The translations under genes were made by a program, and so were the position numbers. Below the pieces are notes generated by a model. That model was not told where the DNA came from. It saw only the letters and a list, made by a program, of their open reading frames with translations, and made no database searches. A DNA stretch of 22,267 bases from a virus, in IMG/VR virus record IMGVR_UViG_3300025892_000176, positions 1 to 22,267 of that record; one strand, 5' to 3'. Below, piece after piece: positions 1 to 22,267 of the stretch (position 1 is the first letter of the stretch; every line of letters begins with the position of its first letter).

Positions 1-193
1 CACGAACATGATTTCCGGCAGACGTAAAACTTGTAGTAACGGATAGGGTTGCACCATTCGCTCGAAGTGTTTCACTAATTGAGCCATTTTCATCGATAGT
101 CACATCTGGTTCAGCAGCACCTCCTGACCAGTTTGTAGTAGCATCTGCTGTATCGATGATTGTTGGAGTATTTGTGAGAGTAGGTACAGCCAT
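1..193 (-). CDS. Start of an unrecognised, probably structural protein (3' end beyond window)
   Basis: The frame opens with an ATG whose A is base 193 and stays open for 64 codons to the window edge, so only the N-terminus is visible. It begins MAVPTLTNTPTIIDTADATT and is rich in Thr, Ser, Ala and Asn with no charged clusters, no signal peptide and no membrane segment. That composition suits a beta-rich phage fibre or decoration protein, but I do not recognise the family. The start overlaps the stop of the collagen-like gene as TAATG, which suggests translational coupling and membership of the same late operon. In T4 the prohead protease gp21 follows gp20, so this gene and the collagen gene are extra material between those positions. 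Product unknown. Confidence 0.7.
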   Translation of the reverse strand, partial: MAVPTLTNTPTIIDTADATTNWSGGAAEPDVTIDENGSISETLRANGATLSVTTSFTSAGNHVR

Positions 194-1335
194 TAGTTAT
201 ACTCGTATGTAGCCCTGTCGTCCCAAATTTTATCAAAGTCGGCGGAATTATTTGCCCAAATGATTTCTAAATCTCCATCAGCAAATTCTTTTATTCTTTT
301 AATTCTCCAAATTCCGTCGGACTTATTTGTGCCTGGTACCGCTTCACCAACATAAGTATATGAGTTTGTAGCATCTTCATCAACAAGTTTATCGTATTGC
401 ACTTCTAAGTCTGCCTTTAGTCTATCAAGAATGTTCAAAAATGATTGAACAACGAATTTCTTTTTAGCAGGATCGTATATAAGAATACCGTCTCCTACTA
501 CATTTTTAATAGCAGACTTGTCTACATCTGCATTGTCAACAATTTTATATGAACCGCCACCACCAAGAGTGCTTAAAGAACGATTAATCTGGTGAATCTG
601 CCTTTCTAAATTCGCGGTGACTGTATTTTTATTTTCCGTTAATTGTTCATTAAATCGTTTAAGGGCTTCTTCAAATCTTTCTTTATAATCTGGACCTGCG
701 GGTCCCGCGGGACCAATTTCGCCCCGTTCTCCTTGTGGTCCAATTGCTCCATCCTCTCCTTTAATCCCCATTGGGCCACGTATGCCCTGTTCTCCTTGAA
801 TGCCCTGAACGCCTTTTTCGCCCCTGTCACCAGTTCTTCCAGTGTCTCCTTTGGGTCCTTGATTTCCCTTATCACCTTTTGTTCCTTTATTTCCAGTTTT
901 ACCTTGAGCACCGTCTCTACCATCTTGTCCACTAGCACCTTGAAGACCCTGTTCTCCTTGTGGACCTTGTTCTCCTTGTGGTCCAACAACAGGACCCATG
1001 TTTTCCCACATAGTTCCTGTGTACAACCAAAAATCTAATGATTTTTTATCAACAACACCGTCACCAGGATTAGCATAAGTAAAATTTTCAGTCAAAGAAG
1101 ATTGATCTTCGAAACTTTCAAACGATCCTATTATATTAATATTTGGTCCAACTTTACCCCGAGGTCCAGTTTTACCTATAGGTCCACGATCTCCCTTAAC
1201 GCCTTTATCACCTTTAGACCCTCTAATAGCTTGAACATCTTCGAGCGCGGCGAGAATTTTATCTTCTAATTTTTCGATTTCTTTTTGCGTATGTACAACT
1301 GCAAACGCAGTAGAAATAGTATCAATCTTGCTCAT
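193..1335 (-). CDS. Collagen-like phage fibre protein
   Basis: A 380-residue protein, probably a trimeric fibre on the virion. Residues 10-37 look like a short coiled coil. Residues 39-64 are nine Gly-X-Y triplets. Residues 65-117 form a globular connector with a WLYTGTMWENMGP stretch, a type that often joins collagen segments in phage fibres. Residues 118-216 are 33 uninterrupted Gly-X-Y triplets. Residues 217-257 are a charged, predicted coiled coil, followed by a GGGGS linker and a C-terminal globular region of about 120 residues. Collagen-like triplets are common in phage fibres, where a coiled coil usually sets trimer register; that role here is inference. The ATG at 1335 lies inside the end of gp20 (14-base overlap) with no strong Shine-Dalgarno site, so it is probably translationally coupled. 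Its site of attachment is unknown. Confidence 0.88.
   Translation of the reverse strand: MSKIDTISTAFAVVHTQKEIEKLEDKILAALEDVQAIRGSKGDKGVKGDRGPIGKTGPRGKVGPNINIIGSFESFEDQSSLTENFTYANPGDGVVDKKSLDFWLYTGTMWENMGPVVGPQGEQGPQGEQGLQGASGQDGRDGAQGKTGNKGTKGDKGNQGPKGDTGRTGDRGEKGVQGIQGEQGIRGPMGIKGEDGAIGPQGERGEIGPAGPAGPDYKERFEEALKRFNEQLTENKNTVTANLERQIHQINRSLSTLGGGGSYKIVDNADVDKSAIKNVVGDGILIYDPAKKKFVVQSFLNILDRLKADLEVQYDKLVDEDATNSYTYVGEAVPGTNKSDGIWRIKRIKEFADGDLEIIWANNSADFDKIWDDRATYEYN
688..984 (-). repeat. Long collagen Gly-X-Y repeat tract (33 triplets)
   Basis: In frame this stretch encodes a glycine every third residue, residues 118 to 216 of the fibre protein, without interruption. X and Y positions are mainly Pro, Glu, Gln, Lys, Asp and Arg, giving many charged KGD/KGE-type triplets that stabilise collagen without hydroxyproline. 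The 9-base period produces long spurious open frames on both strands here. A shorter tract of nine triplets lies at about 1141-1221. Confidence 0.9.
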
Positions 1336-5431: not shown

Positions 5432-5495
5432 AATCGTGTCCTTTTTTCGTTAACATAAATAAGATATTCATAATACGGAAATTAATCAATGTATT

Positions 5496-5503
5496 TATTT
5501 ATA
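5496..5503 (-). promoter_or_regulatory. T4-type late promoter (TATAAATA) for gp18
   Basis: On the minus strand the octamer TATAAATA is an exact match to the T4 late -10 element read by the gp55 sigma factor with the gp45 sliding clamp. It sits in the 92-base gap between gp17 and gp18, on the same strand as the genes. Transcription would begin about 60 bases before the gp18 ATG. The match and its intergenic position are seen directly; use by a gp55-like factor is inference from T4. Confidence 0.75.
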
Positions 5504-11486: not shown

Positions 11487-13100
11487 TTATACTACAGTAA
11501 TGGTATTTGCCATTCCGCCGTGATTAGTACACTTGTAATAAAGTGAACTCGGAGCGCTCATAGGTACTTTAAATTGTGTAATCCCAACTTCATCTGTTCC
11601 TGATATTACTGACACACCTGTGGTGTATGGTGTGCTAGTATCCGCTTCAGTAATTAAAAATGGATGACCTGTATGATTATGATCAAATCTATATGTATCA
11701 CCTCTCCTCAAATACAATACCGGATTGTCTTCTGCGGAAGGAAACCAAACATTTCCTGCATCACTAAAGGTATAAGCAGAGCTACCATTATTGGTCATGT
11801 TAAATGAATATGCTACGCCCGTACTAACAGAAATTCCCACATCACTGTCTGCTCCAAAATACATAGCACCAGTGTTGCTGATGTTATTAATTTTAGAAAT
11901 ATCAGGAACATATCTTAGATTGCTGGAAGCGTTGACTTCATCAGCAGGAGCTCCTGAAGCACTTCCAAAATGAATATATGAAGTACCGTTGTTGGCATCT
12001 GCATTAACAACTTTTACTTCATTCGCTATCGAAAGAGATAAATTAGTTAACTCTGAACCGTTACCAGAAAATTTTGTTGCGTATACAGTATCACCTTCAA
12101 CATAAAAATGTTCATGGATACCAACGCTGTCGTATCCTGTTGTGCTGGCTTTTCCTGTCACATAATCTTTAACTGGCTCAGCTAATAAAGGGTCCCTGAT
12201 TATAGAATCTGTTTTCTTTGTCCATTGTGAACCACCAAATAAAAAAAGTTCAGTTTCGGTAGTACCTTTAATTATGTTTGTACCAGGATTATATAAAAAT
12301 GCAGTGTCTATATTAGTGCTATCATATGTTTCAGCAGTAGTATCCAAACGAAATAAAACACTATGATCTGCGTCTTCTTCGGTAAGATTGGCTTGAATTT
12401 GTTTTCCGCCAACATTTTCTAATAATGATCCATCACCTACAAAAAATATATCAGGTCCACCAAATTGATTTGTTGCTGGATCATGTCTTAAATCTGAATC
12501 TACATACAAAACAGAAGCGCCGTCTTTGGTTGTAGAAAACGTAGCATAAAGAGTATCAGTAATACTATTCAATATTGGATCTTGAATATTTACTTGATCA
12601 GCTAAATCAGTTATTTGTGAATGATAAGCACTATCAACTTTTATTAATTCCGCACCGTTACCAGAAAATGCTGGCGCACTTAAAGTGGCTAAATCACCTG
12701 TAGTATCATATCTAAGACCTGTGCTCGTATATGAACTATCAAAACCTGTTGCGTTTTCTCTAAAAATTAAATATCCTTCAGTTAATGTTTGATTGTCTAC
12801 AGCATCTATTTCTTTGGAATCTGCTACAAGTTCGTCTAAATTAGTAATGCTATTGCCAAATCCATCAGTTAATGTATTAGAAAAGGTGATATCCGTTGTG
12901 CCGGTTATAGATCCACTAGCACTTAAATTTCCATCTACTTGAGAACCACCTGCTACATCATCAATATTAGTATTTGCTAAATTACGTATATCTTGTAATG
13001 TGGATCGTTTGGTCGTCAATGAGCTGACATCATTAACAATAACTTCATCTGACAATACAGGAGTAAAAGCAATTAATTGGGATAGTTTAACGTCTGCCAT
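11487..13100 (-). CDS. Virion structural protein with C-terminal cupredoxin domain
   Basis: 537 residues. The N-terminus MADVKLSQLIAFTPVLSDEV resembles short attachment modules at the start of many marine-phage fibre-like proteins. The middle (about 50-440) is Gly/Ser/Asn/Thr-rich with repeated tail-fibre-like pieces, for example FSGNGAELIKV and FSGNGSELTNL. Residues 450-537 form a cupredoxin fold: LYLRRGDTYRF, NHTGHPFLI, then LYYKCTNHGGM at the end. Candidate type-1 copper ligands are H479, C524, H527 and M530. The C-x2-H-x2-M spacing is that of amicyanin. It has no signal peptide and is not a free electron carrier, so the domain is more likely a fibre tip or stabilising unit. A late-promoter variant lies just upstream. 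Confidence is high for a virion protein with this domain and low for copper binding. Confidence 0.85.
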   Translation of the reverse strand: MADVKLSQLIAFTPVLSDEVIVNDVSSLTTKRSTLQDIRNLANTNIDDVAGGSQVDGNLSASGSITGTTDITFSNTLTDGFGNSITNLDELVADSKEIDAVDNQTLTEGYLIFRENATGFDSSYTSTGLRYDTTGDLATLSAPAFSGNGAELIKVDSAYHSQITDLADQVNIQDPILNSITDTLYATFSTTKDGASVLYVDSDLRHDPATNQFGGPDIFFVGDGSLLENVGGKQIQANLTEEDADHSVLFRLDTTAETYDSTNIDTAFLYNPGTNIIKGTTETELFLFGGSQWTKKTDSIIRDPLLAEPVKDYVTGKASTTGYDSVGIHEHFYVEGDTVYATKFSGNGSELTNLSLSIANEVKVVNADANNGTSYIHFGSASGAPADEVNASSNLRYVPDISKINNISNTGAMYFGADSDVGISVSTGVAYSFNMTNNGSSAYTFSDAGNVWFPSAEDNPVLYLRRGDTYRFDHNHTGHPFLITEADTSTPYTTGVSVISGTDEVGITQFKVPMSAPSSLYYKCTNHGGMANTITVV

Positions 13101-13127
13101 TTTTTAAAATCTCGTTTTTCTTAAGTT

Positions 13128-13135
13128 TATTTATG
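13128..13135 (-). promoter_or_regulatory. Possible late promoter variant (CATAAATA)
   Basis: The minus-strand octamer CATAAATA differs from the T4 late consensus only at the first base. It lies in the 38-base gap after gp15 and 28 bases before the ATG of the cupredoxin protein. Position and strand fit, but one mismatch in an AT-rich genome can occur by chance. Confidence 0.4.
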
Positions 13136-13138
13136 CGT

Positions 13139-14425
13139 CTATGACACAGTTATATTAACAGTTGCAACTTCTGATGTACCAATTTCTGGTGTAACTCGAT
13201 AAACAAAAGAGTCTGTTCCAGTATAACTTACGTTGGGTGTATATCTAAATTGTCCTGTGGCAGAATTTAGGACTTCTACAGATCCATTGAGAGGATCTCC
13301 TCCTGCTGCCAAAGAAAATACTAATGTTGTATTTGTCCACAAATCATTTGTTGCAACATTAAAGATCTGTGGAGTATCCAACGTCACATTAACAACATCA
13401 TTTATAGCGTCTGAAATCGCTGCAACATTAACAGCAATAGGATATAATTTAGAACCAAAGTCACCAAGAACATTGATATTAAAAGAATCCAATCCACTAT
13501 AGTCGATATCGGAAGTATATGTATAAGTAGCTACCGCACTTATCACGCCGTCTGTCGATGTTAATACATTTGTTAATGATCCCGAAGCAGTGCCGTGTAA
13601 AGGATCTGACACTGTAATAGATGTTGCTGAAGAAGGAATATTTTTTATCATAAAATTTTCTACTGTTAAAGGCACTTCTTCGATAGGCTCTATAGATAAA
13701 GGAGATGCCGCAAAAGCACTATCAAGACATACTTTAGAAAATAACTCTTCTTCTGGGTATGCGTTAAGATTGAGAAACTCAACACACGCTTCTTCGATAA
13801 TGGCAGAACTGTTAGAAACATCTTTATATAAATTGATTTTCATATCAAAATCTAATGTATAAATGATAGTACGTCTGTTTTCTATAGCCGCTTCGTAATC
13901 ATCACTAAATGTAATTCCCGTCATTGTGATAGGTGTGTCTTCTTTAATATCTAAATCATTTAATGGCTTAACAGTGACGGTGTAATGGGGTGTAAAATAA
14001 GGCAATATTTGCTCAACAATTTGTAATGCGTCATCTTGAGTTTTAGCGTATGCGTTCAATTGGAAAGAAATTATGTATGGAACAGGTGAATAAACTCTTT
14101 GCCCTTTTCCATTATAAGATGAAGGAAAAGTAACGCAGTTGTTCATTTTAGGCAACTGTCTTGTCGCATCATAATTCATAGCTAAAATTTCAAATGAAAT
14201 TCTGGGTAATTTTAATGCAACCTGTCTTTCGTAATCTTCTCCATTTTGCATAGATTCAATTCGTGCAAGAAAATCTCTTTTAGGAGCATAAGATAAAGGC
14301 ACTTTTTGTTGAGATAAAGTTTTACCTGCACTGTCTTGTCTTACAATGTTGATGTTATTAAATAACGATCCAAACACCGCAACTGCTTTTCTTATTCTTT
14401 GATGATAAAAATGATCGCCAAACAT
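13139..14425 (-). CDS. gp15: Tail terminator (sheath stabiliser) gp15 with C-terminal cadherin/Big-like domains
   Basis: 428 residues, while T4 gp15 is 272. Residues 1 to about 235 are the gp15 core: MFGDHFYHQRIRKAVAVFGS, LPRISFEILAMNYDATRQ, PYIISFQLNAYAKTQDD and FSDDYEAAIENRRTIIYTLDF. In T4 a hexamer of gp15 caps the finished tail and joins it to the gp13/gp14 neck. The remaining 190 residues are a linker plus two tandem beta-sandwich repeats of the cadherin-like/Big type. The hallmark YTYTSDIDYSGLDSFNINV (301-319) recurs as FRYTPNVSYTGTDSFVYRV (393-411), each before a terminal strand. The extension would place six or more adhesive domains around the neck. The start overlaps the gp14 stop as TAATG. 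Confidence 0.9.
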   Translation of the reverse strand: MFGDHFYHQRIRKAVAVFGSLFNNINIVRQDSAGKTLSQQKVPLSYAPKRDFLARIESMQNGEDYERQVALKLPRISFEILAMNYDATRQLPKMNNCVTFPSSYNGKGQRVYSPVPYIISFQLNAYAKTQDDALQIVEQILPYFTPHYTVTVKPLNDLDIKEDTPITMTGITFSDDYEAAIENRRTIIYTLDFDMKINLYKDVSNSSAIIEEACVEFLNLNAYPEEELFSKVCLDSAFAASPLSIEPIEEVPLTVENFMIKNIPSSATSITVSDPLHGTASGSLTNVLTSTDGVISAVATYTYTSDIDYSGLDSFNINVLGDFGSKLYPIAVNVAAISDAINDVVNVTLDTPQIFNVATNDLWTNTTLVFSLAAGGDPLNGSVEVLNSATGQFRYTPNVSYTGTDSFVYRVTPEIGTSEVATVNITVS

Positions 14426-15321
14426 TATGGATCTCCAAACGGATTAGATTCAGAGAAATCAATGAAGTCTATAGTACCGCCTTGTGATGTAGTATTGAAT
14501 GCGTCATTCATAGCGCCGTCTTGTAAGTCTTCTCCTATGACACTAGGAGTGCCGGTAGCACCTGATGTGGATCCAACAATAGGAGCGTTAGTACTCCAAT
14601 CATGATATTCGCCATCAGAAGCACCTCCAGTGTGAGCGACATATATTTTCTTTTCAGATGGATTTGAATTGTCTATGTTGACAACTTCACCTGTTAGGGT
14701 AAAAGAACCATTAACCTGAGTTACTGTTTCATTAAATACAAATGCTCCTGTAATTTCAGGAAAGGTAAACACAGTTTGGAAAGCATGAGCGCTTTCAACA
14801 TTGTCTATACCTTCTACACCAGTATCAAAATCTTCGTCGTTGTATTCAAACAATTCCGCACGAAGTTTAAAGACTGGCAAATCTTTTAGCTGATAGAAAG
14901 GTGATTCGTCTTCAACTTTAGTAATTTCAAAAATAGATTTTGAAAGTGGAAGAGAAATCAGATCTCCTTCGCGAGGGCGGTAGAATGGTTTGTCTTCTGA
15001 TGATTCGTAAACAGCAACTTGATTTAACCAACGCCTGCGAGATACAATAAAAGTGGCGGCATCACGAATCTCTACTCCAAATTTGCTGAACAAATCTGAT
15101 TCGCCATCGAATCCTTCAGTATTTTCTATATACATTTCCACCTTATATGCGTCATCAAACCTAGACACATTATCATCTGAAAATATGGTATCTTTGTTTA
15201 CAATCTCTCGGGGCATATAATAAACATCTTGCCCATACATTTTAAGAGATTCGATAATCAGATCTTCGTAAAGTTCTTGCTCTGAAGATCTGCCTTGTGT
15301 GAAATAGAGATTAGTAGCCAT
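14425..15321 (-). CDS. gp14: Neck protein gp14
   Basis: 298 residues (T4 gp14 is 256). With gp13 it forms the neck that closes the filled head and receives the tail. Diagnostic stretches are LKMYGQDVYYMPREIVNKD (27-45), FDDAYKVEMYIENTEGFDG (55-73) and SKFGVEIRDAATFIVSRRRW (79-98), which match exo-T-even gp14. Residues 110-160 hold the conserved FYRPREGDLISLP region. The last 100 residues (TVFTFPEITGAFVFNETVTQ onward) are Gly/Ser/Asp-rich and less conserved, ending NPFGDP. The gene lies three bases after gp13, and its stop overlaps the gp15 start as TAATG, so the three neck/tail-joining genes are probably translated together. Confidence 0.93.
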   Translation of the reverse strand: MATNLYFTQGRSSEQELYEDLIIESLKMYGQDVYYMPREIVNKDTIFSDDNVSRFDDAYKVEMYIENTEGFDGESDLFSKFGVEIRDAATFIVSRRRWLNQVAVYESSEDKPFYRPREGDLISLPLSKSIFEITKVEDESPFYQLKDLPVFKLRAELFEYNDEDFDTGVEGIDNVESAHAFQTVFTFPEITGAFVFNETVTQVNGSFTLTGEVVNIDNSNPSEKKIYVAHTGGASDGEYHDWSTNAPIVGSTSGATGTPSVIGEDLQDGAMNDAFNTTSQGGTIDFIDFSESNPFGDP

Positions 15322-15324
15322 TCA

Positions 15325-16086
15325 TTAACCCATAAAAAAATCAGGTGGAAATTCATTTTCATTTCGTAACTTTTCTTCTAATTTTTCCAATTCAGCAGTA
15401 GCATCATCATAATACTGTCTTCCGTTTAATTGTACTCCTCCCGGCAAAGTCATACCGTCAAACTTCATCATGTTACCACCCCATTGTTGTTTGATCAATT
15501 GTGTGGTATAATCTTTCATAAACTTGTCATTCCATACGTCAGCAAACGAATCTGGATCTATAAGAGATAAACATTCGGCAATAATATAATCACCTTCTGC
15601 TAGATTATTGTATTGATTGGGAGCCCACTCACCAAAAATATATAATCTATTCTGATGCCTTGAAAAATTAACTCGAGGTTCGCCGTCTAAAATATCTGAA
15701 ATAAACTCTAGATACTGTTCCATTTGGTAATAATATGACAAACCTCCTGCGAAGTTCATGAAGTCGCCCATGCTGTTTAACATCATTTGATATTTAACAT
15801 CAAACATATTAACAGATCCAAATGTTTTACTAAATGGATATACTTTAGTGAGATATAGTACAGTGTTTGGAATAGTAATGTATTCGTTTGTTACATCATC
15901 CGCTGTTATTTGATGTTTAATGTAAGTAGTAAAAGTAGCGTCTGCATGATATTCTTGAAACATTTGTAACGCATCATCAACTTTATCTTCAATCTGATCA
16001 TCATCTACATTAATTTCTAACACAGGAGAACCTAATCTCCGCAGGCAGAAATCAACTAGTTCTTCTCTTGTAGTAGGCGATGCCAT
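15325..16086 (-). CDS. gp13: Neck (head completion) protein gp13
   Basis: 253 residues (T4 gp13 is 309). It acts with gp14 at the portal vertex after DNA packaging. The N-terminus reads ELVDFCLRRLGSPVLEINVD then DQIEDKVDDALQMFQEYHAD, the conserved opening of exo-T-even gp13. Later landmarks are YITIPNTVLYLTKVYPF and a helical C-terminus (DATAELEKLEEKLRNE) ending PPDFFMG. The ATG at 16086 has GGAG at 16095-16098, eight bases upstream, and a perfect late promoter at 16109-16116. It heads the gp13-gp14-gp15 unit. Confidence 0.94.
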   Translation of the reverse strand: MASPTTREELVDFCLRRLGSPVLEINVDDDQIEDKVDDALQMFQEYHADATFTTYIKHQITADDVTNEYITIPNTVLYLTKVYPFSKTFGSVNMFDVKYQMMLNSMGDFMNFAGGLSYYYQMEQYLEFISDILDGEPRVNFSRHQNRLYIFGEWAPNQYNNLAEGDYIIAECLSLIDPDSFADVWNDKFMKDYTTQLIKQQWGGNMMKFDGMTLPGGVQLNGRQYYDDATAELEKLEEKLRNENEFPPDFFMG

Positions 16087-16108: not shown

Positions 16109-16116
16109 TATTTATA
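16109..16116 (-). promoter_or_regulatory. T4-type late promoter (TATAAATA) for gp13-gp15
   Basis: An exact TATAAATA on the minus strand lies in the 36-base gap between the subtilase stop and the gp13 ATG. A start about six bases downstream leaves a short leader that still contains the GGAG ribosome site. Two exact copies in this window, both intergenic and on the coding strand, support a gp55-type late system. Confidence 0.72.
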
Positions 16117-16122
16117 AGAGTA

Positions 16123-18033
16123 TTAAAGCGTTAATCGAATACGTCTTCTAGGATAAGTTTGACCGCTTACTGGTCTGTCTACATGTAATTTGCCATGTAT
16201 ATCATTATGATATTGAGATATTCTATCCAGTCTAACTTCGTATGGTAAAAATACTCTGAGGGGATTTGTACCAAACAATTCAGTTAATGTAAATCCTCCG
16301 TTTGCAAATCTTACCTCATCATAAGTATTAGGGGTTGTATATCTTTCAGGATATATTTTATTGGAAGATGACGGCGCACCTGTTAAATTTGTGTAATCTA
16401 TCACGCTATCACTTTGTAACACGGATTTAGCATTAGTTAACATGTATGTTTTAAGTTCATCAAAAGATGGATATCTACCGTATTTAACATACCACCAACT
16501 GACTATGACACCAGCGACACCTGCTACTTGAGGAGCAGCGTTACTTGTTCCACCAAACATACCCCATTTAAATCCTAATGCATCAGTGGCTAAAGGATAA
16601 GCATTAAATGTTGAAGTTCCATTCGCTGCCAAATCTACAACTGGTCCACGAGCAGAATAACTATCTAATAATGTGTTAGTATCACTGTGTTGTGAAGCGG
16701 CTACAGACATACACCATCGTGTGTCTCCATCTCTTCCATTTCGTAAAGGATATACTACTGAAGGTGCTGATCCTGTAGTGTCTATTATAGTATAATTAAG
16801 ACTAACCCCTTGTTCTGCAGAAAAACTTTGATAAAAATATTTAATAGGAACTGATCCACCACCTTGATCTTCAATTTGTATTTGAGTGTTCCATTGAGGT
16901 TGATTCCAACCAGCCTTTACTCCTGCTCCATTACCCAAAGACATAAAATTATATATGCCATTATATGTAGACCAGGTGTCACCTATTTCTTCCCATGCGC
17001 TAATTTTATTTTGGGTTGTCCAAGGTATCATCCATTGAGAAACTCCTCCATCGGTTACATATCGAGGAGCAATACCAGCGTTAACAAAAGGAGTTAAATC
17101 GTTTCCCCAACTGGCACCAGGTCGATTAGTGGTAACAAGATTGCCTGCGGAATCATATGCTTGTAATTGATCTATGTAATCTGGTAAAATAGCATAGTTA
17201 ATAGTAGAACCAAAAAATCCCCACGCACCGGTGACTATCGTAGCATTTCTTTTACCTGTTTCGGGATTAATAGGTTTTGTGTTATGCCATTCTAAAATTG
17301 CACCGTAAACTGATACATAAGGATCTACATTAATGTATATAACTCGAAGAGAAGCATTTTTACACCAACCAGAATATAATCCTCCTGAAGTGCTTAATAC
17401 ACCAATTGCATGACTGTCAAAATATTTTAATCCTGCAATTTGATTATTTTCATCCGAGTTAAGATTCACATTGTAATCACGCCATTGCATAGGAATAAAT
17501 CTTCTATCGCCATTCGCATCTAAGAAATCAGGATGATCGATTGTCATATCAGTATCGTAATCAGGTAATCCAGCCTCAACAGCAACAATGTCTACATATT
17601 TTCCATCGTTCCAATAATCATAAGAACCCGGTATATTATTGTCTTCGTTTTCTGGAGGATCAATAAATCTTCCTACAGGATTTTCATTTTCAATTGAATC
17701 AGAAAAATAATAAAATGAAGTAGTTGCTCGATCTATACCAATTTCTCCTTCAGCAAATGTTACAGAGTCATCGGTTATAAAATTCGATTGTTGTTGTCGT
17801 AATATGTCTGGATATGTAGAAGATGAGATTGCTATTTCTTGTTTTTCAAGTGAGACAATTTCTTCGCAGTGTGAAAGTTCCTCAGCCTCTTCTTCGGTCA
17901 ATCTAAAAACCATAAGAGATTGGAACATAGAACATTCATCTATACACTCGTAGTCACAGGCGTGACCAGTATGAATAAATTCATGTTGATCACACTCTCC
18001 TGTAACAATTGCGTTGTATATGTGTTTTCCCAT
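16123..18033 (-). CDS. Subtilisin-like (S8) serine protease, phage-encoded, with Glu at the Asp position
   Basis: 636 residues. Residues 1-70 look like an I9-type propeptide: FRLTEEEAEELSHCEEIVSLE matches its C-terminal half. They include an unusual Cys/His cluster (C14, H17, H21, H24, C26, C30, C34). The protease domain spans about 145-545. His208 lies in FDSHAIGVLSTSG and Ser496 in GGTSNAAPQVAG; a candidate oxyanion Asn is N303 in LVTTNRPG. The position usually held by Asp in a DTG-like turn reads Glu153 (VAVEAGLP). The segment WHNTKPINPETGKRNATIV is typical of marine-phage subtilases. No signal peptide is visible, so it probably acts in the infected cell or on the virion, for instance maturing or releasing surface proteins. 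The start overlaps the upstream stop as TAATG. The fold is secure; activity is not. Confidence 0.9.
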   Translation of the reverse strand: MGKHIYNAIVTGECDQHEFIHTGHACDYECIDECSMFQSLMVFRLTEEEAEELSHCEEIVSLEKQEIAISSSTYPDILRQQQSNFITDDSVTFAEGEIGIDRATTSFYYFSDSIENENPVGRFIDPPENEDNNIPGSYDYWNDGKYVDIVAVEAGLPDYDTDMTIDHPDFLDANGDRRFIPMQWRDYNVNLNSDENNQIAGLKYFDSHAIGVLSTSGGLYSGWCKNASLRVIYINVDPYVSVYGAILEWHNTKPINPETGKRNATIVTGAWGFFGSTINYAILPDYIDQLQAYDSAGNLVTTNRPGASWGNDLTPFVNAGIAPRYVTDGGVSQWMIPWTTQNKISAWEEIGDTWSTYNGIYNFMSLGNGAGVKAGWNQPQWNTQIQIEDQGGGSVPIKYFYQSFSAEQGVSLNYTIIDTTGSAPSVVYPLRNGRDGDTRWCMSVAASQHSDTNTLLDSYSARGPVVDLAANGTSTFNAYPLATDALGFKWGMFGGTSNAAPQVAGVAGVIVSWWYVKYGRYPSFDELKTYMLTNAKSVLQSDSVIDYTNLTGAPSSSNKIYPERYTTPNTYDEVRFANGGFTLTELFGTNPLRVFLPYEVRLDRISQYHNDIHGKLHVDRPVSGQTYPRRRIRLTL

Positions 18034-21000
18034 TACAGGAATTCAGCCGGTAAAGCATAGTTGGCGTAATACACACCTTCACCAACAACTATCTTGAAGT
18101 TTTCAATATATCCATGAAAACCAGAAGTGCCGTCAGCCAATGCAGCCAATGTTAGAGGTCTAGTACCCCAATCCCATACATTGAGAGGAAGGTTTGTAGG
18201 TTTGAAACCATTCATGGAGAAAACTCTGGGATCAGGTTGACTTGAATAAGTTATTGCAAGATGGTTCCACTGTGATGTTACAAAAGAAGTTTGTGATAGA
18301 CTTGCCGTTGAAACACCAGAGATGAATCCGCCGTCATTTTGATACACCCGTATCTGATCATCTTCTCTAGTCACAGTTAAATACTTGTTGCCAGTAGAAT
18401 CAGAGGTTGATGGTGCGCCAAAGGTAAATAAAACCTCTTCGCCTCTACCAGTTTGATCAGACCAAAACCAACCTTCTATTGTGCATTTTTGTGTACCTAA
18501 AGCAATCCCTGTAGTTGTCTGTAAATAATTATTTCCAGTGGTTTGATCAGCAAACATAGATTCGTTTCCAAATTTAGTTTGAGCTGAGGAAGAGGCAAAG
18601 TTACCAACTAAATTGAATGATACTGAAGCATCTGAAATATCTGAAATAACACCCGCATCTGATTTAAGTAATAACTGTGATCCTATAGTTCCCCAGACTG
18701 GATATTCTCTAGGATTGCTTTCTTTAATTGCACTGTTTAGTCCAAAATTAGTGGCACTTGGTACATTTACAACATTCCATGTTATAAGACTGAAATTCAT
18801 TGCACTAGCACCGTTGAACATATTATTCATAAAGTTACTAGTAACACTAGATGTGTCCCAAGAACTTATATTTTGGTTGAATGCAGAGGCGTTCTGGAAC
18901 ATACTCTGCATATTAGTAACAGCACCAGTATTCCAACCGCTAATGTCTTGATTGAAATTGGTTGCGTCTCTGAACATCCTTTGCATATCAGTGACACTAG
19001 ACGTATCCCAAGAACTTATGTCTTGATTAAAGGCTGTACAACCGTCAAACATTTGATTTGTTGATGTCACACCAGTAGTGTTCCAACCCGAAATATCTTG
19101 ATTGAATGCAGAATTCCTGAAGACGCTGCCGAGCGCTTGTCCCGATAAATTTAATGTGGTTGCAAAATTACCATTTAAGGCTACACCACCATTGTTGAAT
19201 GACGTAGCATTGTCAAACATTGTTGTCATACCAGTAACACTAGACATATTCCAAGAACTAATGTCTTGATTGAATACAGTAGCAGTGTCGAACATTTGTT
19301 GCATATTTGTAACAGTACTGACATCCCAAGATGAAATATCTGGATCATTAACTGACGATCCATTGAACATACTTTGCATACTAGTAATAGGCGATCCTGT
19401 CGGCATTAAGATACCAACGTTTGCAACGAACTGATAAGTTGGGTTAGCAGTTCTCCAAGCAGTACCAGTAGGATCTGTAGCAGTGTTACTTAACGGATAC
19501 AGGATACCACCTGACGTACCCCAGATAGGATGTTCATCGGGCGTGAATAGTAGTGTGTCAAGATCAAAATTTGTTGGTTCTAGACCTATTGAAGATACAT
19601 CCCAAGCATTTAGGTTTTGATTAAAACTAAGTGCTTTTGCAAAAGTTTCAGTCATATCAGTGACATTAGAAACATTCCAACCGGATATGTCCGGAGTATC
19701 TAATGAATAAATATATCCATAACCAGGGTCAGTCGCGTTTGCGGTTGCCTCTAGATTTTCACCTTCATAATTAAAAACTATAAGTTCAGAGTCGTCTATC
19801 AAAGAAACTGTGTTTCGCTCAGCATTGATGGCCAAATTCATTGCATTAAACTGACTGCTCAATAGATCGCCATTAGAAAGATCATAAACATATACTGAAT
19901 CTCTGCCGGAGATACCTGCCGCTGACGCGGGCGTATTAGCGACATTATCGTCAAAACACGTAATAGCTAATTTATTTTGACTAACCGAAATGCCCGGTTC
20001 GACAGCAAAACCGCCCCAACGATCAGTCTGATCGCCAGTATAAGGATTATTTAGTTCGTAGAGTAAATTTCCTGTTGATATGCTATGCACATAAACAGTA
20101 TTATACGAAGAAGAATTTTTTCCTAGCGTCACAACATAATCACCAGAAACTGCCATATGATAACCCCCCCAAGACGGGTTGGTGGTGTTCAGCGATGCCG
20201 GTCGAGTTAATTCTCGTAATGGTGCACCTCCAGAGACAATATCATACACATAAACGCGACCATAATTACTAGGATCGCCATCTTCGCCTTTAGAACTTAC
20301 AATTAAATTTGTTCCTGATATTTTAGGCGCCGCACCGCCAAAGTATCCAAAAGAAGTATTTCCTACCCCAAGAGGATTTGGTGATGTAAAGGTATTAATT
20401 AATGTGTTGTAGTTAACGCCACCCCACACCTTTACTCTGCCGTTCTGAGGATTGTCAGCACCGTAATCTGTTATTGCAAGATAGTCAGAAGACATGCCCA
20501 ATTTTTCACCTAGATGATCACCAAAAGGTAACCCCGTTGCTCCTGTTTTAGTATTGACAACAGATCCTGTTGTCAAATTGTAAATTTGAACTCGCCCTGC
20601 TGCGCGAGTATTACTCGCGCCAGAATACCATTCTGATGAACTTACTGCTAAGTAATCACCACCCAAAGCAATTTCATCAGCATAACCGACATCTGAAATC
20701 GGTTGTGAAAAATTAATAGTTCCGTCATTTTCAAGTGCTTTATCAAAAGTTTTAGTAGATGTATCATATATTAAAACGGCTCCACCATCAACACCAATGG
20801 ATAAATCGTGGTCTGGTGCCGCAACTGCAATCCAAGTCGAATTTACTTTGGCGCCATTTATACCAAAGTCAGAATTGTCTGGGTTGTTGGTGGGGGAGCT
20901 TTGCTTAGGAGAAAGATACCCGGTAAGTTTTAAACCACCAAATTGAAGCGCTTTATCAAACATTGCAATCATATTTACTACACTAGATGTATTCCAATCC

Positions 21001-22267
21001 GATATGTCTTGATTAAAAACGGCAGATCGTTCAAACATTCTTTCCATATTTGTAACATTGTTTATAGTGCTAGAAAAAGTACTCCCTACAAATGTTGTAT
21101 TCCCGTTGTTAAAAGTTTTATTTCTAGCTTGAGAATTTTGAGAAAACATAAAAGAAGTGTTTGTAACATTAGCCATGTTCCATGAAGATACGTCTTGATT
21201 AAACTCTAACGCAGTATAAAACATATTAGTCATGTTAACATTTGTTGCTGTTCCGCCAGCTAAATTCCATGTCAAAGGAACAAAAAGAGGATTATTGATT
21301 AAGACACTATCTCCACCATTATTAAATTTAAGTGAGGTATCGAACATGGAAGTAAAGTCATTAACGTTACTTACATCCCAACTACTAAGATCTTGGTTGA
21401 AGAGGCTGGTACTCTTAAACATATTACTCATATCGGTAACAGTGCTAACATCCCACACTCCAATATCAGGATCATTAAATGACTTATTATTGAACATATC
21501 ACTCATATCAGTAATAGGTGTTCCTGCTGGCATTAGAATACCAACGTTTGCTATAAACGAATATCCAGCCGCTGTGCCATAGTTGGTTCTCCAAGCAGTA
21601 CTAGTAGGATCTGTGGCAGTATTACTTAACGGATACAGGATACCACCTGAAGTACCCCAAAGAGGATGTTCGTCGGTAGTGAATAATGTAGCTCCAGTGG
21701 CAAAGTTATTTGGCAGAGAAGCAATGTTTGAAACATCCCAAGCATTCAAGTTTTGATTGAATGCTAAAGCGCCATTGAACATGTTTAACATATCTTGAGT
21801 TGTGCCGGAATTATCAGTACCCACTAAACCAGTATCCCATCCACTAATGTCTTGATTAAATGTCTGGGCATTGTTGAACATAAACCCCATGTTGATGACA
21901 GCGGCAGTATTCCAAGAACTAATATCTTGATTGAATGCGGTAGCGTCGGAGAACATACCATACATATAATCTACAGTTGAAGTGTTCCAAGTCAAAGCAA
22001 CACCGCCATTGTTGAATGCAGAGGCACCTTGGAACATTCTATCCAGACCTCTAAGATTAGTGTTGTTGAATGCCACAATACCACTAAGACTCCAAGAACT
22101 AAGATCTTGATTGAATGAAGTTGCATTGGTGAATGTTGACCACATACTAGTAACAGTAGAAGTATCCCAAGTAGAAATGTCAGGATCATTAAATGTTGAA
22201 TTGCCTGAAAACATACTGTTCATATCAGTAATGGGTGATCCTGTTGGCATTAAAATACCAACGTTTG
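18033..22267 (-). CDS. Giant BspA/DUF285 surface protein with embedded beta-propeller and C-terminal LamG domain (5' end beyond window)
   Basis: The frame is open through the window edge, so the N-terminus is missing; 1410 residues are visible. Numbering from Met at 22250: 1-437 is a DUF285 (BspA-like leucine-rich) array of about a dozen units, built on [16 protein letters not shown] and an MF-containing helix with a 25-residue period. 438-842 has about seven blade-like units ([35 protein letters not shown], alternating with [16 protein letters not shown]), best read as an FG-GAP-like beta-propeller. 843-1155 is a second DUF285 array of about nine units. 1215-1405 is a LamG/concanavalin-like domain ([39 protein letters not shown]). 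DUF285 proteins are often cell-surface or adhesive. Its place upstream of neck genes, where T4 has whisker and tail-fibre genes, suggests a host-binding fibre. This is inference. Confidence 0.88.
18770..19724 (-). repeat. DUF285/BspA repeat array 2
   Basis: A second run of about nine 25-residue units of the same family, resuming with [15 protein letters not shown] directly after the propeller. Successive FNQ triplets at residues 1064, 1089 and 1114 show the exact 25-residue period. It ends before the region leading to the LamG domain. Confidence 0.85.
19450..19540 (-). repeat. Linker repeat copy 2 within the DUF285 protein
   Basis: This 91-base stretch matches 21586-21676 at 84 of 91 positions by hand alignment, with no gaps. 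It encodes the linker [20 protein letters not shown] that separates groups of DUF285 units. It is followed in both copies by [14 protein letters not shown], and a third copy of that end piece sits at the window edge. Confidence 0.85.
20940..22267 (-). repeat. DUF285/BspA repeat array 1
   Basis: In-frame 75-base units encoding a 25-residue repeat with consensus [20 protein letters not shown]. About a dozen units are visible, some expanded by insertions such as [11 protein letters not shown]. The array continues past the window edge. At the gp13 side it stops abruptly after AMFDKALQF, where propeller sequence begins. Confidence 0.85.
21586..21676 (-). repeat. Linker repeat copy 1 within the DUF285 protein
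   Basis: Direct-repeat partner of 19450-19540, in the same orientation and frame about 2.1 kb apart. Identity at DNA level is clearly higher than among neighbouring DUF285 units, which suggests recent duplication or gene conversion. Confidence 0.85.

Follow-up and report, generated by a model that had tools for sequence, protein, structure and literature searches.

The gp15 tail terminator of a marine T4-like phage is fused at its C-terminus to two Ig/cadherin-like domains of the Big_9 family. The fusion is conserved among relatives of the phage, and within the wider gp15 family the module found at this position turns over. Because relatives bear a different module, or none, at the same place, our analysis suggests that the gp15 C-terminus is a general attachment (or swap) site where surface modules can be exchanged and, probably, presented around the neck of the virion.

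Results

The window, that is, the whole stretch of DNA analyzed, is a virus record of 22,267 bases with the gene order of a T4-like myophage and its genes on the minus strand; gp13, gp14, gp15, gp16, gp17, sheath, tube and portal were all found by Pfam and PHROG. The gene for gp15 (13139..14425, minus strand; PF16724, phrog_227) is a single uninterrupted open reading frame that starts with ATG and encodes 428 amino acids: the tail terminator, or tail sheath stabiliser, plus a C-terminal extension. The start codon shares bases with the gp14 stop codon (TAATG at 14425), and the gene belongs to the row 13-14-15 together with gp14 (head closure Hc2, 298 aa, 14425..15321, minus strand; phrog_460, E 1.5e-77) and gp13 (head-tail adaptor Ad2, 15325..16086, minus strand; phrog_211, E 1.1e-39). 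Two large genes separate gp15 from gp16, unlike in phage C48C1, which is the nearest phage record by gp15 core and whose own gp15, of 258 aa, has no extension.

The 22,267-base window contained no RNA elements or tRNAs, and scans of positions 12900-14600 for sigma-70-type promoters and terminators gave results at chance level. The motif ATAAATA, which we take to resemble T4-type late promoters, is found ∼23-61 bases upstream of gene starts at 13128-13134, 16109-16115 and 5492-5502 (minus strand). Despite these three clusters close to gene starts it was rejected as a late promoter, its total in the window (7 matches) being not above but below the 11.2 expected by chance.

The first part of the protein is, by sequence match and by terminator fold, a T4-type gp15 tail terminator. 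This core (residues 1-220; 13766..14425, minus strand) is covered by Pfam T4-gp15_tss (PF16724) at residues 5-218 (E 2.3e-66, 223.9 bits against a cut-off of 25) and by PHROG 227, ‘tail sheath stabilizer’, at residues 1-220 (E 2.8e-72). T4 gp15 is also the top structure match of the predicted core, both in Foldseek (model 1 against 9mkb, E 2.5e-13) and in VIA-align (model 2 against 4huh_B, Z 15.5, rmsd 3.7 over 167 residues). Alignment with L026 and other short gp15 proteins places the equivalent of the native C-terminus (..ELFSKVCLDSA) at residues 221-237 (13715..13765, minus strand). An earlier reading of this DNA, made from the sequence alone, had the core finishing near residue 235, which is right: the L026 protein, which lacks the extension and whose core is 65% identical, stops at residue 234, and in both of our models the Ig part starts at ∼238-241. 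That reading also called the core close to T4 length, which is true only roughly, T4 gp15 having 272 aa.

Behind the core, it is well supported that a tandem Big_9 pair lengthens the native C-terminus of an otherwise normal T4-type terminator. Domain 1 (residues 238-336; 13418..13714, minus strand) is defined by one of two Big_9 stretches, by model 2 and by cadherin matches; domain 2 (residues 337-428; 13142..13417, minus strand) is defined by the better Big_9 stretch and by its VIA-align match to the collar protein gp13 of phage Milano. That stretch, at residues 340-426, scores E 3.5e-12 and 47.5 bits against a cut-off of 23.6, and two Big_9 stretches are likewise present in each of the homologues L104, L112, L109, L102 and L114. 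Cadherin_5 (Pfam; E 1.1e-4, 22.4 bits) stays under its cut-off of 26.5, as does the tandem-95 repeat (NCBIfam; E 5.7e-11) under its own. The usual home of Big_9 is in long bacterial surface proteins.

The two domains align with one another as repeats (BLASTP E 4e-5), and each contains the signature YTxxxxYxGxDSF exactly as first read: YTSDIDYSGLDSF in domain 1 (residues 303-315; 13481..13519, minus strand) and YTPNVSYTGTDSF in domain 2 (residues 395-407; 13205..13243, minus strand). The claim of a gp15 terminator fused to two cadherin/Big-like domains is thus borne out by Pfam, by PHROG, by the single 428-aa frame and by its presence in many contigs and lineages. The interval first assigned to the fusion, 13139-13670, does fall within the extension (residues 252-428), but the extension begins earlier, at ∼13714.

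Two single-chain AlphaFold2 models were made, model 1 from 21 sequences and model 2 from 59. A cadherin/Ig-type beta-sandwich fold is well supported as the predicted fold of the extension: in model 2 the mean pLDDT is 78, both sandwiches lie at 80-95 by ten-residue blocks, and domain 1 lies at 81-94 from residue 241 on. With a pTM of only 0.42, model 2 does not fix how the domains are positioned against the core. A strand, a candidate sheath-binding arm by analogy with P1, XM1, Milano and 7-7-1, is predicted at residues 229-234 in model 2, but residues 230-232 have pLDDT below 50; moreover, the motif D[SD]D[FY]G[FY], which stands near the C-terminus of most other gp15 proteins, is missing from the two-Ig clade. 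These two points weaken the case for a putative outward route of the chain from the neck.

The best VIA-align match of domain 2 (residues 338-428) is to residues 69-153 of Milano collar gp13 (Z 11.3, rmsd 1.7, 82 residues, 21% identity), followed by the phage 7-7-1 collar protein (Z 10.3) and then, among single-domain matches, by a protocadherin (Z 9.4). Cadherin pairs match residues 238-428 as a whole (Z ∼9 in VIA-align, with cadherin matches in Foldseek too). When a profile of the extension was compared with all solved structures, the top hit was Milano collar gp13 (E 3.4e-6), followed by an RTX protein and then by the 7-7-1 collar (E 4.7e-4); with a smaller extension profile (A1) the RTX protein ranked first and Milano second. 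The VIA-align matches listed for the gp15 model span only the D domain of the Milano protein, absence of its wall domain from such a listing being no proof. Because the D domain of the Milano and 7-7-1 collars is the nearest match, this kind of domain is one already known around phage necks. Since Big_9 is widespread, the Milano match may nonetheless reflect a common fold alone.

To gauge recurrence we scanned IMG/VR with the whole protein and used the best 80 of 255 relatives. L001 to L017, L019 and L021 match over the full or nearly full length at 50-82% identity, except for L014, which is cut by a contig end. A second scan of IMG/VR, with a profile of the extension only, returned 41 loci: in 33 the extension stands behind a gp15 core, one (L113) lies too near the start of its contig to be assigned, and the other seven are parts of different, mostly large proteins. 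The two-Ig form of gp15 amounts to ten clusters at 90% identity. By contrast, no close copy of residues 231-428 turned up among 50,697 phage records (tblastn), a search that distant Ig-like extensions would escape; the sole hit was a hypothetical, unrelated protein of phage C48C1 (31% match, E 0.02).

This recurrence bears on two ways in which the extended protein might not exist as such. The first, raised in part by the sequence-only reading itself, is that a frameshift, a chimera or a sequencing error joined two genes; with the same single-frame architecture in 33 contigs from many samples, and synonymous differences far exceeding others, we reject such an artefact as exceedingly improbable. 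The second is that the extension is proteolytically removed or absent from virions. The domains are conserved and in frame across ten clusters, which speaks against removal, and we know of no processing of T4 gp15; this too we consider very improbable.

Both parts of the protein appear to be under purifying selection. For the three closest of seven pairs, dN/dS ranged from 0.037 to 0.055 over the core and from 0.102 to 0.154 over the extension. These values are rough, as dS is at least 1.3 (saturated), and in the four wider pairs the ratio was undefined or higher.

We then asked what other gp15 proteins carry at the same place. Five IMG/VR scans and 13 named phage records yielded 354 open reading frames with a gp15 core, 333 of them complete at both ends, with 197 unique sequences and 100 clusters at 90%. 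Phage CP39 (L362), part of which reads as unknown letters, was left out of the tree, leaving 99 representatives. An added domain is present in 33 of these and absent from 66, a proportion that is not a prevalence, since each query supplied at most its 80 best matches and a few phage records were added to these. The 33 extended representatives are diverse: ten have the two-Ig form; one has a single Ig domain (Big_9 E 3e-7); four have DUF285 repeats (Pfam E 1.9e-73 to 9e-77 in the three of four scanned) that follow a linker rich in proline, often PEPEPE; four are cyanophage forms with an insert ahead of the end motif; five have a C-terminal stretch resembling the end of a 537-aa fibre protein encoded in the window itself (E 2.4e-12 to 3.5e-6); two further extension types account for five and two representatives; and KVP40 and Mosig stand alone with one each. 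Our labels ‘cupredoxin-like’, ‘SGATG-like’ and ‘GRGY’ were given by sequence appearance or recall, and in those self-labelled types that were scanned Pfam returned nothing above cut-off except gp15. The DUF285 repeats are those of L319, L299 and L317, together with L331 by look.

Cultured phages are among those with an extended gp15: Mosig (532 aa), KVP40 (450 aa) and S-CAM9 (359 aa). In the Vibrio phage KVP40 (L363:1992-3344) the extension is a run of imperfect DIDWSTR-like repeats. In the Pelagibacter phage Mosig (L129:1501-3099) the middle part looks like laminin-G, an assignment that we rejected as a look-alike: there was no Pfam hit at E ≤ 1 and only a match at E 0.022 to laminin alpha-2. 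The comparison of gp15 lengths in related phages that the sequence-only reading had proposed confirms that the two-Ig form recurs, but it also reveals extensions of several other kinds, cultured phages included, that this reading had missed.

Similar modules are encoded close by. The 537-aa fibre/connector-like protein (11487-13100, minus strand) lies between gp15 and gp16, and its last 90 residues resemble the C-terminal gp15 module of L255, L230, L238, L074 and L271. Upstream of gp13 a 1405-aa protein (18033-22250, minus strand) consists largely of DUF285 / PARCEL repeats (Pfam E 1.2e-154); modules found on the gp15 of relatives thus also occur in neighboring structural genes here. A 636-aa tail-fibre-like protein (16123-18033, minus strand) has a subtilase (Peptidase_S8) match at residues 435-536 (E 5.4e-8), and a 380-aa protein beside the portal gene (193-1335, minus strand) contains collagen-like triple-helix repeats. 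The gp14 protein is variable too, but through insertion before a conserved end: against 179 unique gp14 sequences that of the window is lengthened in its C-terminal half, ahead of the conserved terminal DFSESNPFGDP, and NPFG or NPLV is present in all 40 of the commonest gp14 endings (161 of the 179 unique sequences). Insertions ahead of the same conserved end bring other gp14 proteins up to 590-656 aa.

A tree was built by a quick method on the gp15 core alone (residues 1-200); 36 of its 96 inner branches are weak. On this tree the presence or absence of an extension requires at least 16 changes, and all extension labels together require 18, compared with a mean of 32.3 when shuffled. DUF285 must have changed state at least four times given the starred branches, and the two-Ig group requires one change, that is, a single origin, with a support of only 64. 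The 532-aa gp15 of Mosig adjoins L132, with 268 aa. One further protein, L300 (L300:2949-3752), ends in PEPEPEPNFI, which is the linker plus the last residues of the DUF285 form with the repeats missing: it looks like a loss of the repeats, or could be an assembly collapse.

The many gains and losses across the core tree, the apparent deletion remnant in L300 and the faster evolution of the extension relative to the core are what would be expected if the extension were a near-neutral passenger that a free C-terminus tolerates, that has little function and that comes and goes by chance. Nevertheless, the dN/dS of the extension is ∼0.10-0.15 in the closest pairs (rough, dS being saturated), and the two-domain form, with its single origin on the tree, has been kept in ten clusters. 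We therefore consider a mere passenger improbable.

Discussion

How might such modules be deployed? Most probably the gp15 core forms a hexamer that caps the tail tube and would tie the tube to gp14 and the top sheath ring. In the joined particle of T4, residues 203-245 of gp15 are contacted by residues 178-256 of gp14 (PMC12270204). Related contractile tails have a terminator whose C-terminal arm runs outward and adds a strand to the top sheath subunit; that the arm reaches the top sheath ring is described in the reports on Milano (PMC10491603), 7-7-1 (PMC12796354), P1 (PMC10304247) and XM1 (PMC10457771). Because the arm does so in these four phages, we infer, by analogy, that the extension is displayed outward around the neck: a module behind the arm would exit on the outside of the neck, where the decorating domains of Milano sit. 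If gp15 assembles like its T4 counterpart, each hexamer would present twelve domains, and the six subunits would thus surround the neck with ∼twelve beads. Such a ring would be an integral equivalent of the collar for which Milano-type phages use a separate protein.

The most likely use of such beads would be to adhere weakly to glycans or to polymers on cell surfaces, whether of the host or of its surroundings, and an adhesive role of the domains is plausible. The sequence-only reading had described the neck as a site not usually associated with host contact. As written this is not supported, for the necks of other phages do bear decoration or adhesion modules: Milano and 7-7-1 have collars there, and the 936 lactococcal phages have carbohydrate-binding modules in their neck passage structure (PMC6669499). 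Against adhesion stands phage A-1(L), whose neck-fibre carbohydrate-binding module failed to bind its host (PMC10966104).

It is also possible that the domains form a structural collar, packing on gp14 and the top sheath ring and stiffening the neck with no partner outside the virion. Particles of phage 812 that have lost their neck decoration proteins often have deformed or broken necks (PMC12886913), the Milano collar is a cross-linked wall around the neck (PMC10491603), and purifying selection on the extension would fit such a role. Yet the modules at this site are unrelated in sequence and size, and the close relative L026 (core 65% identical) has no module at all, both of which are hard to reconcile with one shared structural contact. 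A purely structural collar is thus a serious contender that we nonetheless judge rather unlikely. Taken as a whole, a terminator with an exchangeable module displayed at the neck, likely used for weak adhesion, is the explanation that we favor, with slightly better than even confidence. More tentatively, and with somewhat less than even confidence, the extension may be a second, neck-based contact device that adds to the tail fibres and fills the place that collar or whisker proteins have in other phages.

Contractile tails conserve the terminator. Should surface modules regularly be attached to its C-terminus, annotation as merely ‘tail sheath stabilizer’ would overlook a display device. The neck would then become a place where abundant marine phages might touch hosts or glycans, and the swap series (no Ig domain, one, two, or another module) would provide natural constructs with which to approach the role of Ig-like domains on virions, a long-open question.

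The domain type and the neck location are each known separately, and capsids and tail tubes with Ig-like domains are familiar. As far as we found, neither a T4-type terminator fused in this way nor modules that are swapped repeatedly at its C-terminus have been described: in the literature searched, which covers subscription journals thinly, gp15 was nowhere said to carry additional domains, Ig-like or other, which is weak evidence of absence. T4 gp15 (PF16724; PDB 4hud, 4huh, 9mkb) shares with the present protein core sequence, fold and the gene row 13-14-15, but it ends at 272 aa, whereas here two Ig/cadherin-like domains are added and the end motif has diverged. With Big_9, cadherin-like and tandem-95 proteins the domain type is shared; here two copies stand on a phage terminator. 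T4 Hoc, T5 pb10 and pb6, and Sf14 gp20 likewise carry extra Ig-like domains, in varying number, on a structural protein, although theirs are on capsid or tail tube and not on a myophage terminator (PMC11313276, PMC11821841). The neck passage structure of the 936 phages is also a neck display, but it is a separate fibre protein around a siphophage connector.

The nearest parallel by fold is the collar of Milano and 7-7-1 (gp13, gp118), which shares with domain 2 the D-domain fold and a profile match, and probably the same location at the neck. In Milano the collar protein gp13 combines a wall domain with a decorating one, and the collar forms four rings around the neck that touch the top of the sheath, with a cross-linked wall (PMC10491603). 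That collar is made from a separate 230-aa protein with a wall domain, in 60 copies arranged as four 15-fold rings; here, in contrast, the domains are fused to a terminator that is presumably hexameric.
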